Assembly (NCBI GenBank): GCA_030598325.1
Contig: JAUVQE010000004.1
Span: forward strand, 1 to 32,180
DNA from: Nitrospirota bacterium
Lineage (GTDB): Bacteria; Patescibacteriota; Gracilibacteria; UBA1369; LOWO2-01-FULL-3
Reading direction: 5' to 3'
DNA length: 32,180 bases
Below, piece by piece: positions 15,859 through 23,733 of the stretch. The position numbers and the translations under genes were made by a program. Position 1 is the stretch's first letter, and every line of letters starts with the position of its first letter. The notes under the pieces are model-generated. The model saw only the letters and a list, made by a program, of their open reading frames with translations. It was not told the origin of the DNA and did not search any database.

Positions 15859-16263
15859 TTATTCGGCATTTCCTAGTCCACATTTGCAGTTGAGGTTGTA
15901 GGATTTTTTCTCCATCTTCTTTAGCTTTTGCATATTTTGGAGTTTGACCCCAGCTTCTTCAAATAGTGCTTTGGCTCCTTCTCTGTTGCCTTCTTGCATC
16001 ATGGTGTGAGCTTCCTGCATTAAACCAAACTGCTCTTCTGACAGCTCTTCTCCGGTTCTTTCCTGATGCTTCTCTGCGATCACGTCATAGTCGCCATTTT
16101 CCAGAGCTTCCTTCAGCATTTCTTTTTGCTCTAATTTTTGGAGAAGTTCTGCCTTTTTAACTTCCTTTTTAACTTCTACCGAGTCCGCGAAGACTGTTAC
16201 AAAAGAAGTTGCCAGTACTACCACAATTAGTGATAAGACAGTGAGTTTTGCTTTGATTGTCAT
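15859..16263 (-). CDS. Small secreted helical protein linked to the ECF sigma cassette
   Basis: The 134-aa product has a clear signal peptide (MTIKAKLTVLSLIVVVLA, cleavage probably after VFA near residue 27). The mature domain is Lys/Glu-rich and helical, with EKHQERTGEELSEEQFGLM and HTMMQEGNREGAKALFEEAG repeats, and a C-terminal NCKCG pair of cysteines. It resembles in style small periplasmic stress-binding proteins of the CpxP/Spy kind, but I cannot assign it to a family. A longer frame from 16302 exists, but its extra residues precede the signal peptide, so 16263 is the start. It lies 59 bp after the membrane gene; the gap contains the perfect palindrome ACTATATAGT (16301-16310), a possible operator. 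A terminator follows. Confidence 0.78.
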   Translation of the reverse strand: MTIKAKLTVLSLIVVVLATSFVTVFADSVEVKKEVKKAELLQKLEQKEMLKEALENGDYDVIAEKHQERTGEELSEEQFGLMQEAHTMMQEGNREGAKALFEEAGVKLQNMQKLKKMEKKSYNLNCKCGLGNAE

Positions 16264-16322
16264 CGTTTTTGGGTTAAATATTTTTATATAACAAGCTTGC
16301 ACTATATAGTACGCGAAAACTT

Positions 16323-17688: not shown

Positions 17689-20600
17689 TTATGTTCCCCT
17701 GTAAATCATTTCTGCCGCTTCCCCTCTTGTTAGAGGCTGATCAAGCCCATTCTCCTGTAATATAAAGTTAAGCGTTGTTCCTCTGGCGTAACGCACGTAC
17801 GGAACAAACCATTCTTCACCGGACTCTACATAAAATTCCAGTCCCTGTGTTTCCAAAATGATTTTCAGGGCTTCCACGGTATTTACCGGATTACCGGGTT
17901 TAAATGTTCCGTCTGGATTTCCGTGAATTATTTCCAGTCGTTTTGCGGTACAAACAAATGTGGAGAACCATTCATCATTCACATCGGGGAAACAATAATT
18001 TCCGTAGATGCCTTCCACAAATGTATTCATGACTATTTTCGCGAATTCAGCCCTGTTTAGTCCGTCATCCGGCTTGAATGAGCCATCGGGGTGTCCATCA
18101 ACCACTCCTATACCTTCCAGATAAGCGATCGCGTTTTCGTATTTGTGTCCCCATACGTCATAAAACGAAGTTCCCTGGGAAACATAAGGTTTTGCTTCTT
18201 CATCTTTTTCCGTCATATCCTCTTCAATAATTTCATCTTTGATCGGTTCAGGATCGTCCGTAATCGGATCGATATCCGGAACTTCTATCCCAATACTCTC
18301 GTTTGTTTCTTCTATTACAAGATCCCAATGCGGATTATAAGTATATGAAACATTTGGCTTGGGAGCAGTCAGTGCGGCATATGCATCCGGAATACCTTCT
18401 CCCATTTTATTGCTGTAGTAAATATTTGTATCATCAATATTTTTTGCCGTATCCAAAAGCACATATTTTATTTCTTCAATATTCCAATCGGGATGTTCGG
18501 ATTTAATCAGAGCCACGACTCCCGCCACTATCGGGCTTGAGAAAGATGTTCCGTCCGCTGTTCCGTAGTATCCGTAATCTGAAGGAACAGCAACCGGAAT
18601 ATATTCACCCGGTGCTGATAAATCCGTGCACACATTTCCGTAGTTGGAAAAATAAGACAGTCTGTCGGCTTCATCGGTTGAGGCCACTCCCACAATAGCA
18701 TTTTTATTAACATCTACGCATACAGGAGCGTAGGAAGAGTAATAATCCAGATCCGACCCTTCGTTTCCGGTCGCGGCCACAACAAAAACGTTATTGTCAT
18801 AAGCATATTGAATCACATCTTCGTAATAAGATAACGAATCTATTCCGCCAAAACTCAGGTTTATAATGTCCGCGCCATTATCAACGGCGTATTTCATCGC
18901 CATGAGAGCCCCGTCAATACTCACGGTGTATCCGTCATAATTTGCTATGTTTAAAGGCATTATTTTTACGTTTGGGGCTATCCCCGCAACTCCTTTGGTA
19001 TTGTCTTTTTTAGCCGCGATAACGCTTGAAACCATTGTTCCGTGTTCGCCACGCGGAGACATTGAGTTGGAATCGAGAACAAAATCCCATCCGTAAACGT
19101 CATCGACATATCCGTTTTTGTCATCATCAATTCCATTATTTGCGATTTCGTCCTCATTCTCCCAGATTGCGTGCCTAAGATCTTCGTGATTAATATCGAC
19201 ACCACTATCTATCACGGCAACTATTACGTCGCTTGAGCCTTCTGTTATCTCCCATGCGTCTTCAATATTTATTGTTCCCAAATGCCATTGGTGCTGGGAA
19301 TATTCATCATTCGAATATCTATCAATAGATATTATTATCGTATATACGGTGGCGGATTTTATTCCTTGTGAATTTTCTACGTATACATCTCCGCTTATAG
19401 CGTTGTCCGGAACTGTAAAAGTCACATCCGTATTGCTCCAGCTTACTATGTCACATTCAAGATTATTTATGACAATCTTTCCCGGGCTTGTTCCAAAATA
19501 ATATCCGCTGTAAGTATATGTTTCTCCCTGTTCCATTTGACGATAATACCATTCTATAACCGGCTTGTGACCGACTGTATAGGCGGGACTTTCGATAAAG
19601 TCATAATAACCGGTGTTTGGGAAATATACTTTCAAACCAATTGTTCCGGAATCTTCCTCATTTATGAAAGAAGGTGTTGTTACGATGACTTCCGTGTCAC
19701 TCCACTGCTGGAGATAGAAATCTAAATTGCCGTCGCTTATACAATTTTCGTTGAAGCAGATCTGACTATATTCGTTTACATATGAATCTCCAAATCCCTG
19801 TCCTGTAATTGTTACGTCTGTTTCTCCCGGAATCAGGATTTTCGGAGAAATGTAGGTTATTTCAGGGTCGGGAAGCGCTGTAAGTGTGAATTGGGTTCCT
19901 GAATAAGTTATTCCGTATTCTTCGCTTGTTGGAATTTGGAGGATCAGGCTTATTCTTCCTTGTGCATCAACAAATTCCGGTACCAGAACCTGTATTTCGG
20001 TGTCCGACCAGCTTACGAGATAGGTATCCAGGGCTGTGTCATCTATACAACTGTTGTTTTCGAAGCATATTTGATTTTGTCCTTGTGTGTATTCATTTCC
20101 AAATTCGTATCCTGAAATAGTCAGAGTTGTTTCTCCGGGAGTAAGCTCCGCCGGGGAAAATGACGTGATTTTTGGGAGTAATCTGTAATTGCTTGTGCTT
20201 TCAATAGAGGTGTATCCTCCTGCGGATGTGGAATAAATTTTTAGTTTGAGTTTGCCGGGACCCGTCAGATTTTCCGGAATGGTAAGTTCTATCTGTGTGG
20301 GCGACCAGCTTTGGAGATAGGTATCGATGTCGTCATCCGTAATGCATGTTTCGTCAAAACAAATTTGGTTTGAATCCGGTACGTAAGAATCTCCGAAATC
20401 TGTTCCTAAAATCGTGAGAAGAGTTTCTCCCGGAGCGAGCAAGGTGGGAGAGAATGAAGTAATTTCCGGAGCTAAAACGGGATCGGGGTCGTCAGGATCG
20501 TCAGCGGGGTCGTCAGGATCGTCAGCGGGGTCATCGGGATCGTCAGCGGGGTCGTCAGGATCGTCAGCGGGGTCATCGGGATCGTCAGCGGGGTCGTCAG

Positions 20601-21345
20601 GATCGTCAGCGGGGTCGTCAGGATCGTCAGCGGGAGGATCGTCCGCGGGAGGATCATCCTCTGCGATTGTGAATTGTGTTCCACTTTTGATGTAAGAATA
20701 ATTTTCCAGGCTCGGTGTATATAAAAGAAGCCAAATTTCACTAGGGGTATCTACAAAATCGGGAATAAGAACCTGGACCTGCGTATCCGACCAGTTTTGG
20801 AGATAAGTGTCTATATCCAATGTCGGGATACAATTTTCCTGTCCGAAACAGATTTCATTTACCATTGAATTGTAGTCGTCTCCGAAATCGCTTCCGTTGA
20901 CAGTTACGACAGTTTCGCCCGGGGTGATTTCTGTTGGGGAGAAAGATGTGATTTCCGGGTCGGGAGGGAGCTGGACGCTATACATGTCCGCGCTTTGAAT
21001 GTAGTCGAAGGTCTCGGTGTCGGGAAAATAAACTCTTAAATCGATTGTGTTCGGATCTGTTCCTATGTCTTCGGGAACCAAAAGCTGGATTTGTTCGTCA
21101 CCCCATGCCTGGAGATAATCGTTTAAACCTGTCGCGTCGTAGCAATTGTCAGCTCCGAAACAAATCTGGTTTTCTGTGGAATTGAATGGAGAGCCGAAAT
21201 TGTTTCCATCGATTGTCAGGACTGTTTCTCCCGGAGTTATTGTAGCGGGAGAAAAGGCTGTGATTTCAGGATCGTTATCACCTACTGCACTTAAGAGAGG
21301 CAAGGCCGCCAATACTAAAATTATGGGGTAGGTCGTTTTTTTCAT
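17689..21345 (-). CDS. Wall-anchored subtilase with six IPT/TIG domains and C-terminal SLH domains
   Basis: The 1218-aa secreted protein begins with a signal peptide (residues 1-20). IPT/TIG domains with the ITxFSPxxxxPGET pattern lie at about 26-125, 129-228, 296-392, 394-490 and 495-595, and a diverged sixth at 600-680. A DDPDDPA-repeat linker occupies about 228-290. The S8 peptidase domain (about 700-1000) has the intact triad: Asp in VAVIDSGVD (near 713), His in GEHGTMVSSVIA (near 765) and Ser in GTSFSSPIVAG (near 936), with oxyanion Asn in AATGNEGSD. Residues ~1057-1218 hold three SLH-like repeats (AYLEGIGVVDGHPDGSFKPD, LEIIHGNPDGTFKPG, LTRGEAAEMI), expected to bind wall polymer. It is probably a surface protease, displayed by SLH anchoring and binding other molecules through its Ig-like arms. 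It has its own strong promoter. Confidence 0.93.
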   Translation of the reverse strand: MKKTTYPIILVLAALPLLSAVGDNDPEITAFSPATITPGETVLTIDGNNFGSPFNSTENQICFGADNCYDATGLNDYLQAWGDEQIQLLVPEDIGTDPNTIDLRVYFPDTETFDYIQSADMYSVQLPPDPEITSFSPTEITPGETVVTVNGSDFGDDYNSMVNEICFGQENCIPTLDIDTYLQNWSDTQVQVLIPDFVDTPSEIWLLLYTPSLENYSYIKSGTQFTIAEDDPPADDPPADDPDDPADDPDDPADDPDDPADDPDDPADDPDDPADDPDDPADDPDDPDPVLAPEITSFSPTLLAPGETLLTILGTDFGDSYVPDSNQICFDETCITDDDIDTYLQSWSPTQIELTIPENLTGPGKLKLKIYSTSAGGYTSIESTSNYRLLPKITSFSPAELTPGETTLTISGYEFGNEYTQGQNQICFENNSCIDDTALDTYLVSWSDTEIQVLVPEFVDAQGRISLILQIPTSEEYGITYSGTQFTLTALPDPEITYISPKILIPGETDVTITGQGFGDSYVNEYSQICFNENCISDGNLDFYLQQWSDTEVIVTTPSFINEEDSGTIGLKVYFPNTGYYDFIESPAYTVGHKPVIEWYYRQMEQGETYTYSGYYFGTSPGKIVINNLECDIVSWSNTDVTFTVPDNAISGDVYVENSQGIKSATVYTIIISIDRYSNDEYSQHQWHLGTINIEDAWEITEGSSDVIVAVIDSGVDINHEDLRHAIWENEDEIANNGIDDDKNGYVDDVYGWDFVLDSNSMSPRGEHGTMVSSVIAAKKDNTKGVAGIAPNVKIMPLNIANYDGYTVSIDGALMAMKYAVDNGADIINLSFGGIDSLSYYEDVIQYAYDNNVFVVAATGNEGSDLDYYSSYAPVCVDVNKNAIVGVASTDEADRLSYFSNYGNVCTDLSAPGEYIPVAVPSDYGYYGTADGTSFSSPIVAGVVALIKSEHPDWNIEEIKYVLLDTAKNIDDTNIYYSNKMGEGIPDAYAALTAPKPNVSYTYNPHWDLVIEETNESIGIEVPDIDPITDDPEPIKDEIIEEDMTEKDEEAKPYVSQGTSFYDVWGHKYENAIAYLEGIGVVDGHPDGSFKPDDGLNRAEFAKIVMNTFVEGIYGNYCFPDVNDEWFSTFVCTAKRLEIIHGNPDGTFKPGNPVNTVEALKIILETQGLEFYVESGEEWFVPYVRYARGTTLNFILQENGLDQPLTRGEAAEMIYRGT
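20481..20640. repeat. 21-bp minisatellite encoding DDPDDPA linker
   Basis: About seven to eight copies of a 21-bp unit alternate between GTCGTCAGGATCGTCAGCGG-type and GTCATCGGGATCG-type variants on the plus strand. In the protein this is a (DDPDDPA)n acidic rigid linker between the second and third IPT domains. The repeat keeps frame, so copy-number change would lengthen or shorten the arm without breaking the gene. Confidence 0.9.
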
Positions 21346-21388
21346 GGGTGTTTAAGGTTTTTGTTTTTGCTTTTGCTCTCAATGTTAT

Positions 21389-21417
21389 ATTATACCACAA
21401 AAACGTGCTTGAGACAA
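21389..21417 (-). promoter_or_regulatory. Strong promoter of the subtilase gene
   Basis: Minus strand TTGTCT (21417-21412), 17-bp spacer ending in TGG, TATAAT (21394-21389), so an extended -10 with a perfect hexamer. The leader to ATG 21345 is about 37 nt, A-rich and without an SD. The stretch 21418-21553 upstream shows nothing else that I can identify. Confidence 0.7.
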
Positions 21418-21553
21418 TCGCTGTAAAATAATGATTTGTCCAAGCAAAAAGGATTTTACCTAACTTGAAAGAGTTTTTGGCTTAAAACTGTGATCGTAAA
21501 TGTAAGAAACCTCATTATCAAATGCGGTCTAATATATATTATAAATTGTTGTG

Positions 21554-21605
21554 GGAGTGAAGGTGGTAAGGACCTTCACTCCAGTAATTTTGTTAGCACC
21601 TTACC
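21554..21605. ncRNA. Predicted pseudoknot element downstream of the GC-rich gene
   Basis: GGAGTGAAGG (21554-21563) and CCTTCACTCC (21573-21582) form a perfect 10-bp stem with a 9-nt loop. Seven of the nine loop bases, GGTAAGG (21565-21571), are perfectly complementary to CCTTACC at 21599-21605, only 16 nt from the stem. The geometry is that of an H-type pseudoknot on either strand. It lies 24 nt past the TAG that would end the frameshifted gene on the minus strand, so a 3' UTR element is the simplest reading. It has no strong U-tract, so it is a poor intrinsic terminator. Confidence 0.55.
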
Positions 21606-21629
21606 TGTATGAGATCACGCTTTTGCCTT

Positions 21630-21777
21630 CTACTCGCCATCGTCGGCAGCAGTGAGGACAGGCACGATCGGGTCGATTTTCAGGTCCATATCGCGCAACG
21701 CACTCTCCAGTTTTTCGATGAATCCTTCCTTGAGCATCCAGACGGCTCCGTCCCCACTGCTCCCCAAGATCCTCAAT
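21630..21777 (-). pseudogene. Displaced C-terminal segment of the GC-rich gene (other frame)
   Basis: Just after the TGA at 21778, the frame one base further along reads HELRILGSSGDGAVWMLK and continues through KLESALRDMDLKIDPIVPVL to a TAG at 21630-21632. Composition and amino-acid style match the upstream frame (GC about 54% on the 120 bases counted, 21661-21780). One extra C in the CCC run at the junction would explain the break. The segment has no start codon with an SD of its own. It is best read as the rest of the same protein, separated by a real or sequencing indel. Confidence 0.55.
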
Positions 21778-22230
21778 TCATGGGTAAGACCTTAAGGGGA
21801 GCAGCCTGTAGGACAATCTCAGTTTCTCCTTGTAATACGCCTCCTCCTGCCTCCAGCCGGGGCTTACCATCCTGAGCATAGCCCTGCAGACTTCATCATC
21901 CGGGCGAGTACCGTTGCTAGGAGGCTTACCATCATACATGGCCTTGCGCACCCGTCGGAGGGACGCCAGTTCTTCTCCAAAAACCTGTTGATCGGGTGGG
22001 AGCAGATCGTGGAGCCGTTCGATATCACTCTGGCTCGTTGCCAGAGTGAGAATGACTGCATAGGCTCTATCCACGCCAAGCACCGAATCCGCCCCCTTCA
22101 AACGCGGAAAACTAAACTGTGGAACCTTGACTCCTCCAACATGATCCAAATCCAAGTCATGAAGCATCTGCTCCCACTTCTGCTCTTTCTTTCCAGTCGT
22201 CATCACAAACCTCTGGTCTGGAATTATCAC
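21778..22230 (-). CDS. Unknown GC-rich gene, N-terminal part (frameshifted)
   Basis: I do not recognise this protein. It has 150 aa from GTG 22230, or 141 from ATG 22203, which opens MTTGKKEQKWEQML and has an AGAGG 6 nt upstream. It is soluble, with alternating charged helices (WEQMLHDLDLDHVGG, FGEELASLRRVRKAMYDGK, WRQEEAYYKEKLRLSYRLL). Its codons favour C/G in third position, unlike all neighbours, which suggests transfer or a different origin. The frame stops at TGA 21778 in the middle of what seems one domain, and protein-like sequence continues in another frame to 21630. It is preceded by its own promoter and a long structured leader and is followed by a pseudoknot. Confidence 0.55.
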   Translation of the reverse strand: MIIPDQRFVMTTGKKEQKWEQMLHDLDLDHVGGVKVPQFSFPRLKGADSVLGVDRAYAVILTLATSQSDIERLHDLLPPDQQVFGEELASLRRVRKAMYDGKPPSNGTRPDDEVCRAMLRMVSPGWRQEEAYYKEKLRLSYRLLPLRSYP

Positions 22231-22234
22231 TTAA

Positions 22235-22388
22235 TCCTCAACTGAGGACACTAGATTGCTGACCAAGCAACCAAGTCGCAATCCCCAAGTGTAACTGCAC
22301 TTCATCCTGGGGTAAAAATTCCTGCGATCCACTGCAACTGCAGTGTTTTTTACCATAATTGGCAAGATCACAACAACACGCAACTGCG
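22235..22388. repeat. Four inverted repeats sharing a CAACTG core
   Basis: Within ~150 bases lie TCCTCAACTGAGGA (22235-22248), AAGTGTAACTGCACTT (22287-22302), CACTGCAACTGCAGTG (22330-22345) and CGCAACTGCG (22379-22388). Each is an inverted repeat centred on the same (C/T)A-AC-TG core, with arms of different sequence but matching complement. Centres are 53, 43 and 46 bp apart. The third is enclosed by GGTAAAAA (22311-22318) and TTTTTACC (22347-22354), forming a larger stem. CCCC (22283-22286) and GGGG (22309-22312) bracket the second. They lie in the predicted leader of the GC-rich gene (minus strand, where the core reads CAGTTG). Confidence 0.65.
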
Positions 22389-22417
22389 CGCCTCAATTGG
22401 ATGATTCAAAGAGGAAG

Positions 22418-22451
22418 CTAACAACAAATCATTGCTATCAAGTCCCTCCTT
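22418..22451 (-). promoter_or_regulatory. Strong SD with a tiny leader ORF (MICC or MIAMICC)
   Basis: AAGGAGG (22451-22445) is the best Shine-Dalgarno I found in the window. It is followed 3 nt later by TTG (22441) and 12 nt later by an in-frame ATG (22432), giving ATG-ATT-TGT-TGT-TAG. The paired Cys codons, directly before a series of hairpins, resemble an attenuator leader peptide. The spacing from the SD is not ideal for either start codon. Confidence 0.35.
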
Positions 22452-22494
22452 GAATCTAAGATTCACCAAAAAGTCAAAGAACAAATGAGTTTAT

Positions 22495-22522
22495 ATTATA
22501 TATTAAAACTGTGCGACGTCAA
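22495..22522 (-). promoter_or_regulatory. Sigma70-type promoter driving the structured leader and GC-rich gene
   Basis: Minus strand TTGACG (22522-22517), 16-bp spacer, TATAAT (22500-22495). Transcription would start near 22488, giving a leader of about 255-285 nt before the GC-rich coding frame, far longer than any other leader in the window. Confidence 0.6.
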
Positions 22523-22545
22523 GTGTGACATGATCTGGTGAGGGA

Positions 22546-23733
22546 CTATGCCTGTTTTGTTTTTAACGTTAATTTTGCCACTCCCCAAACAAGGAAGCTT
22601 GCCAGAACGAAAACCCCGAGAATGATTATGGTGTTTTTTGTTGGGTTGCTTTCGCTTATCGTGCTGAAGGCACTGTTCGGATTAAAGCGTGTGTGTAGAC
22701 GCAGGAACGAAACGGCTGAAAATATTCCCGCCCATCCAAAACGACTCCATTTGTAAATTGCTTTTCCGGGAAGATATGTAAGCGGGAAAAGTTCAAAAAA
22801 CACACCTTCAAGAAGAATTATATATAGAAGATTGAAAAGGTCATAAATTACTTCATATTCCTTTGTGTACGGCGTGATAAACCATGCCGTCAGAGCCATT
22901 AAAAACATCCAAAGCAGACTGTAATATTCGAGTTTACCTTCATTTCTCTTATATTTTTCCGAAAAAATGAAAAGTCCCATTGGAATTCCGAATAGATAGC
23001 CGGGTGGTATTTCGAGGTTTCGGCTCAAAACCACACAAAATATCGCCAAAAAAAGTCCAAGGACGTTGGGCTTGAAAATTGCGGGACAGTTCCATTTTCG
23101 CGCGACCAGAAAACGGAAAAGATCTTTTGCGTATGTTGCCAGGATGATTGCACCGACTGTGATTATCAATATCCCCAAATTCTTTTTTCCAAAAAGGCTA
23201 AAGTCGGGGGTTATGTGGGCCGCCACCACTCCAAAAGTCAGGAGGAGCAGGAGAAGCGTTATTTTTCTGGTCAGAGGGTGTCTGGATATTTTTGATTCCG
23301 TCAAAAGTCCGAGTATCGGGATGCGTTTCATGAATTTGTTGATGTCATCGCCGTGCGCCTCTATTACATTGTTAAAAAGGAAGCACGCTATTCCGACCAC
23401 GAGGAAGATTATGATTGCGAGGAGAACGTTTGTTCCTATTACTTTTGGGTCTTTTGAAATTTCTGAGGGGCTTGCTATGTATTCATCATTGAGAATTGGG
23501 TTTTCGTAGCCGAATTTTTCTCTTTCAAAAGGTTCTGTTGGAATTTTTGGAATTTCTATAAATTCGTAAATTTTGTACGTTTCTCTGATTTCAGTTGTTC
23601 CGTCGGGGTTTTCGATTATTTCCACGCTTTCCGGTTCACCGAGGTCGGGTCTGGAAGTCAGGTCTTCCGCCGCGAGGGCGAATTGTGTGGACAGGAAAAA
23701 CAAGGCTAATGTAATTAGAATGAGTTTTTTCAT
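22546..23733 (-). CDS. Polytopic membrane protein with signal peptide (FGLLP-motif-like)
   Basis: The 395-aa protein has a signal peptide (residues 1-21, cleavage after ALA). An acidic extracellular domain of ~80 residues follows (PDGTTEIRETYKIYEFIEIP), then about nine TM helices between residues 100 and 390. Near residue 310, EGVFFELFPLTYLPGKAIYKWSRFGW resembles the motif of FGLLP-type membrane proteins, an uncharacterised family; this match is from memory of the pattern and is tentative. The last gene in a run after the sensor kinase and receiver, it also has a promoter candidate of its own, so it may be an output or accessory sensor of that system. Confidence 0.72.
   Translation of the reverse strand: MKKLILITLALFFLSTQFALAAEDLTSRPDLGEPESVEIIENPDGTTEIRETYKIYEFIEIPKIPTEPFEREKFGYENPILNDEYIASPSEISKDPKVIGTNVLLAIIIFLVVGIACFLFNNVIEAHGDDINKFMKRIPILGLLTESKISRHPLTRKITLLLLLLTFGVVAAHITPDFSLFGKKNLGILIITVGAIILATYAKDLFRFLVARKWNCPAIFKPNVLGLFLAIFCVVLSRNLEIPPGYLFGIPMGLFIFSEKYKRNEGKLEYYSLLWMFLMALTAWFITPYTKEYEVIYDLFNLLYIILLEGVFFELFPLTYLPGKAIYKWSRFGWAGIFSAVSFLRLHTRFNPNSAFSTISESNPTKNTIIILGVFVLASFLVWGVAKLTLKTKQA

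Follow-up and report, generated by a model that had tools for sequence, protein, structure and literature searches.

The window analysed here is a 32,180-nucleotide (32-kb) stretch of the genome of a Peregrinibacteria-like CPR bacterium, whose carB gene has its best matches in Peregrinibacteria. It contains a GC-rich island (positions ~21600–22300; GC content of ~0.54 versus ~0.40), which has a hairpin at one edge and whose composition bears out the initial annotation, in which the gene beside the hairpin was described as compositionally foreign. The island carries a minus-strand reading frame (21778–22203, ~141 codons), which starts with an ATG after AGAGGT and belongs to no family. It is continued on the same strand in another frame (21630–21791), as a result of either a frameshift or decay to a pseudogene. 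The GC contents at the three codon positions (0.61/0.41/0.59 in the first frame and 0.61/0.37/0.69 in the continuation) make both frames look coding. A 9-bp perfect inverted repeat, CTGCTCCCC/GGGGAGCAG (21757–21804), spans the frame change, and a CTGCTCCC motif recurs inverted at 21996–22007 and 22166–22177.

One segment of the first frame (22070–22155, minus strand) is derived from carB. It is 83% identical in DNA sequence to the genome's own carB over an alignment of 86 bases, the first 22 of which are identical, and it contains an insertion of 3 nt that keeps the frame. Of the codons that differ between the two copies (counted by eye), nine are synonymous changes and two nonsynonymous. In the encoded protein (P0001), residues ~24–57, as numbered from an upstream GTG, match the large subunit of carbamoyl-phosphate synthase, while searches of Pfam, NCBIfam, PHROGs, the order, a phylum sample and GTDB contigs gave no relative for the rest. 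A match to a protein of one other genome (G123, E-value of 9e-4 in a search of 380 genomes) was taken as chance. Two short matches were considered as candidates for further captures, one of 28 nt to a 709-aa gene at another place in this genome, the other of 26 nt in G155; at these lengths, neither allows an interpretation.

Upstream of the frame lies a promoter-like site (22495–22522, minus strand; TTGACG-16-TATAAT, 11 of 12 consensus bases), which is followed by a putative, highly structured 5' leader of ~265 nt (22225–22489, minus strand). The leader is predicted to form a closed multibranch fold with a long hairpin at 22403–22456; this fold is closed between 22488 and ~22227, and the island frame has its SD-like AGAGGT and its ATG enclosed in a small hairpin of their own (22191–22223, minus strand). 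The minimum free energy of the minus strand at 22190–22490 is -109 kcal/mol (z-score of -5.96). Among 426 segments of 300 nt (mean z-score of -0.37, standard deviation of 1.21), the leader is the lowest, with a z-score of -6.5 compared to -3.6 for the next. Neither the leader nor the hairpin at the island edge has an Rfam match at the gathering score, and nothing credible emerged from searches for tRNAs, tmRNA and Rfam families, among them a permissive one of 21340–22560 (the best E-value, 0.64, was to a human lncRNA model). Strongly structured and located between a promoter and a reading frame, the leader resembles structured leaders of the GC-IGR type, which are candidates from GC-rich intergenic regions of AT-rich genomes (PMC8632094), but unlike these it has neither an Rfam match nor a second example. 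Judged from this single sequence, it is a better candidate for a structured RNA than the hairpin at 21554–21582.

The island and the neighbouring subtilase gene form a block of 4.85 kb (17694–22545), which is absent from the syntenic locus of a genome of the same genus, G001. There, the sigma-factor gene follows directly on the 395-aa gene that lies upstream of the island, and relative to G001 the block has been inserted or deleted exactly behind the stop codon. Another genome, G002, carries a different 2.5-kb insert at this locus, comprising a permease-like gene plus two further reading frames. With nothing in G001, another insert in G002, and the subtilase gene and island here, the site is a hotspot of gene turnover. 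In the subtilase gene, tandem GTCATCGGGATCGTCAGCGGG-type repeats (20400–20650) encode a DDPAD-rich linker of the 1218-aa subtilase/TIG/SLH protein.

The hairpin (21554–21582) is made up of two perfectly complementary 11-nt arms (21554–21564 and 21572–21582) and a 7-nt loop (21565–21571), which reads GGTAAGG on the plus strand and CCTTACC on the minus strand. The initial annotation had recognised it as a 10-bp stem with a 9-nt loop, a count that arises when the top T-A pair is left open. The loop match reported there is borne out by the sequence: 16 nt beyond the stem lies a CCTTACC (21599–21605, plus strand) that can pair with all seven loop bases, so that positions 21554–21605 read GGAGTGAAGGT GGTAAGG ACCTTCACTCC agtaattttgttagca CCTTACC. 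This heptamer is also similar to the stem arm ACCTTCAC, and the two pairings are thus not fully independent. A 57-nt RNA is predicted to fold into a simple hairpin on both strands (-19.9 kcal/mol and a z-score of -2.3 on the plus strand, -19.1 kcal/mol and -3.0 on the minus strand).

The hairpin and its loop match are real and somewhat unusual. Two perfect hairpins of at least 10 bp are found in the window, compared to 0.35 per dinucleotide shuffle, and the hairpin at 21554–21582 is the only one of at least 11 bp (0.075 per shuffle). None of 40 shuffles contained a hairpin with a loop 7-mer match. Given the hairpin, 1.1% of shuffled flanks contain CCTTACC at a distance of up to 60 nt, and these odds have to be read in the light of the window having been scanned for anything odd. 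Nine distinct hairpins in 617 kb of fetched loci combine a stem of at least 10 bp with a loop of 6 nt or more, and a 7-nt loop match occurs in this one only. The earlier statement that the arrangement is unlikely by chance is therefore correct in that it goes beyond ordinary chance, but this applies only if a hairpin of such great length is taken for granted, and in a window searched for oddities.

On the minus strand, the island reading frame stops 47 nt short of the hairpin, which in turn precedes a promoter-like site of the subtilase gene (21389–21417, minus strand; TTGTCT-17-TATAAT, with a TG ahead of the -10) by 137 nt. Like intrinsic (Rho-independent) terminators, the hairpin has a perfect stem and a short loop just 3' of a reading frame, and in a scan of gene 3' ends its stem is stable (11 bp, -17.1 kcal/mol). 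Stems near -17 kcal/mol follow only two of the 21 gene 3' ends in the window, that of the island frame and that of the gene at 15859–16302, where the stem itself finishes in a T-run. Unlike intrinsic terminators, it lacks a U-tract on the gene strand: directly after the stem, the minus strand reads CACAACAAT. As this tail has one T in nine positions, the hairpin is not a canonical intrinsic terminator on that strand. The initial annotation was right to doubt a normal terminator, and its statement that a U-tract is lacking holds for the minus strand; it does not extend to the plus strand, where the tail (AGTAATTTTG) has five T and, albeit weak, is scored as terminator-like. In E. coli, strong hairpins without a U-tract have been described as trimming endpoints after Rho-dependent termination (PMC13289151). 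The hairpin resembles such REP-type, 3'-stabilising hairpins in its strong stem, the missing U-tract and its position 3' of a gene, and differs from them in the stretch downstream, which is not C-rich: for the 100 nt downstream, C minus G equals 4 (64th percentile), which is not unusual and so lends no support to a rut-like site.

The loop match led the initial annotation to propose a pseudoknot, possibly a frameshift element. In an H-type pseudoknot, loop 1 spans the deep groove of stem 2, and the minor groove of stem 1 is covered by the last loop (PMC6007934). The hairpin loop is indeed complementary to a nearby single strand (GGTAAGG/CCTTACC), and we infer that this geometry could be accommodated on the plus strand only, with the top T-A pair open. 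On the minus strand, only a connector of 0–1 nt would be available to span the minor groove of a 7-bp helix, which would exclude a pseudoknot there. The plus-strand RNA would start near 21549, contain a stem 1 of 10–11 bp (-17 to -20 kcal/mol), a 16-nt linker and a 7-bp stem 2 (-9.0 kcal/mol as a separate duplex), and end at an intrinsic-terminator-like site (22330–22351). The latter and a promoter-like TTATCA-16-TATTAT (9 of 12) flank an 803-nt stretch with a z-score of -3.1, but the promoter match is weak, in a region with five promoter-like sites compared to 2.0 in shuffles. Such an RNA would also be antisense to the island reading frame, whereas the strongest fold and promoter are both on the minus strand. 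Without homologues there is no covariation either, and that a plus-strand RNA folds into a functional H-type pseudoknot close to its 5' end is unsupported and rather improbable. The pseudoknot's stem and linker lengths are compatible with the frameshift class of MMTV and IBV, and with the top pair open its connectors would be of 1 nt, like those of MMTV. It differs from that class in lying neither in nor just after a slippery site, in being on the strand opposite to the coding one and in showing no covariation. A role in frameshifting finds no support, since no slippery site lies a few nucleotides upstream and on the coding strand the frame change (~21780–21791) precedes the hairpin by ~200 nt.

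The proposal that the hairpin marks the end of a mobile element is not supported either. Such an element would span ~21530–22505, with the hairpin in a subterminal position. Its possible edges are two 16-nt AT-only inverted repeats, TAATATATATTATAAA (21530–21545) and TTTATATTATATATTA (22490–22505), which are complementary at 15 of 16 positions and have a hairpin inside each; as an island edge, the left repeat is weak. The elevated GC content and the absence of the block from relatives are in line with this idea. However, repeats of pure A/T could be due to chance (the right one overlaps the -10 box of the minus-strand promoter), the block is single-copy, no transposase or integrase domain and no clear target duplication were found, and the precise junction in G001 bounds the subtilase gene and the island together, not the island alone. 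A mobile element is thus rather unlikely. An IS or phage origin was rejected, as neither phages nor plasmids yielded a match to the island DNA and the island's sole match in IMG/VR is to 22 residues of the carB stretch. An integron attC site was dismissed by inspection: an RYYYAAC-like ACCTAAC is present near 21459, but its partner, GTTAGCA, departs from GTTRRRY and no attC fold is obtained.

At a probability of roughly 0.45, our tentative explanation is that the hairpin is the 3'-end or boundary hairpin of a small, horizontally acquired transcription unit on the minus strand. The unit would run from the promoter (22522–22495) through the structured leader and the frameshifted GC-rich frame, which ends at 21630, to the hairpin (21582–21554), beyond which lies the subtilase promoter. 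The hairpin is in the right position and has a strong stem between promoter-like sequences; if the unit is transcribed and its RNA ends here, the hairpin may shield the 3' end from exonucleases and/or aid termination as a stem without a U-tract. The match between the loop and CCTTACC is then probably incidental. The 11-of-12 promoter, the SD sequence, the coding-type codon-position GC and the carB-derived stretch argue for this unit, whereas the reading frame is frameshifted and has no relatives, and may therefore be dead.

The same two observations feed the main rival explanation, which we consider somewhat unlikely, namely that the hairpin is a neutral remnant without a role in decaying acquired DNA and the loop match a coincidence. 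The hairpin is absent from the other 379 genomes of the phylum, even with two mismatches, it has no match in IMG/VR and no second copy in its own genome, and in 99 relatives the island DNA matches nothing other than carB. The loop match, with its 1% chance given the hairpin in a window searched for oddities and its resemblance to the stem arm, is also consistent with a remnant. The rarity of a perfect 11-bp stem and its occupation of a 3'-end position speak against it.

The island's minus strand could further encode an undescribed structured RNA, in which the multibranch leader follows a strong promoter and the hairpin serves as the 3' end. Although unlikely, such an RNA, if real, would mean that the acquired DNA of a CPR bacterium carries a new noncoding RNA or riboregulator, whose leader may govern the hairpin around the SD of an orphan gene. 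Taken alone, the hairpin is an orphan with an ordinary likely role and carries little weight. What it does draw attention to is a hotspot of gene turnover in a CPR genome and, within it, a small unit of acquired DNA that combines a captured carB fragment with a leader of unusually strong structure; if expressed, this unit would offer a new RNA regulator that can be put to the test.
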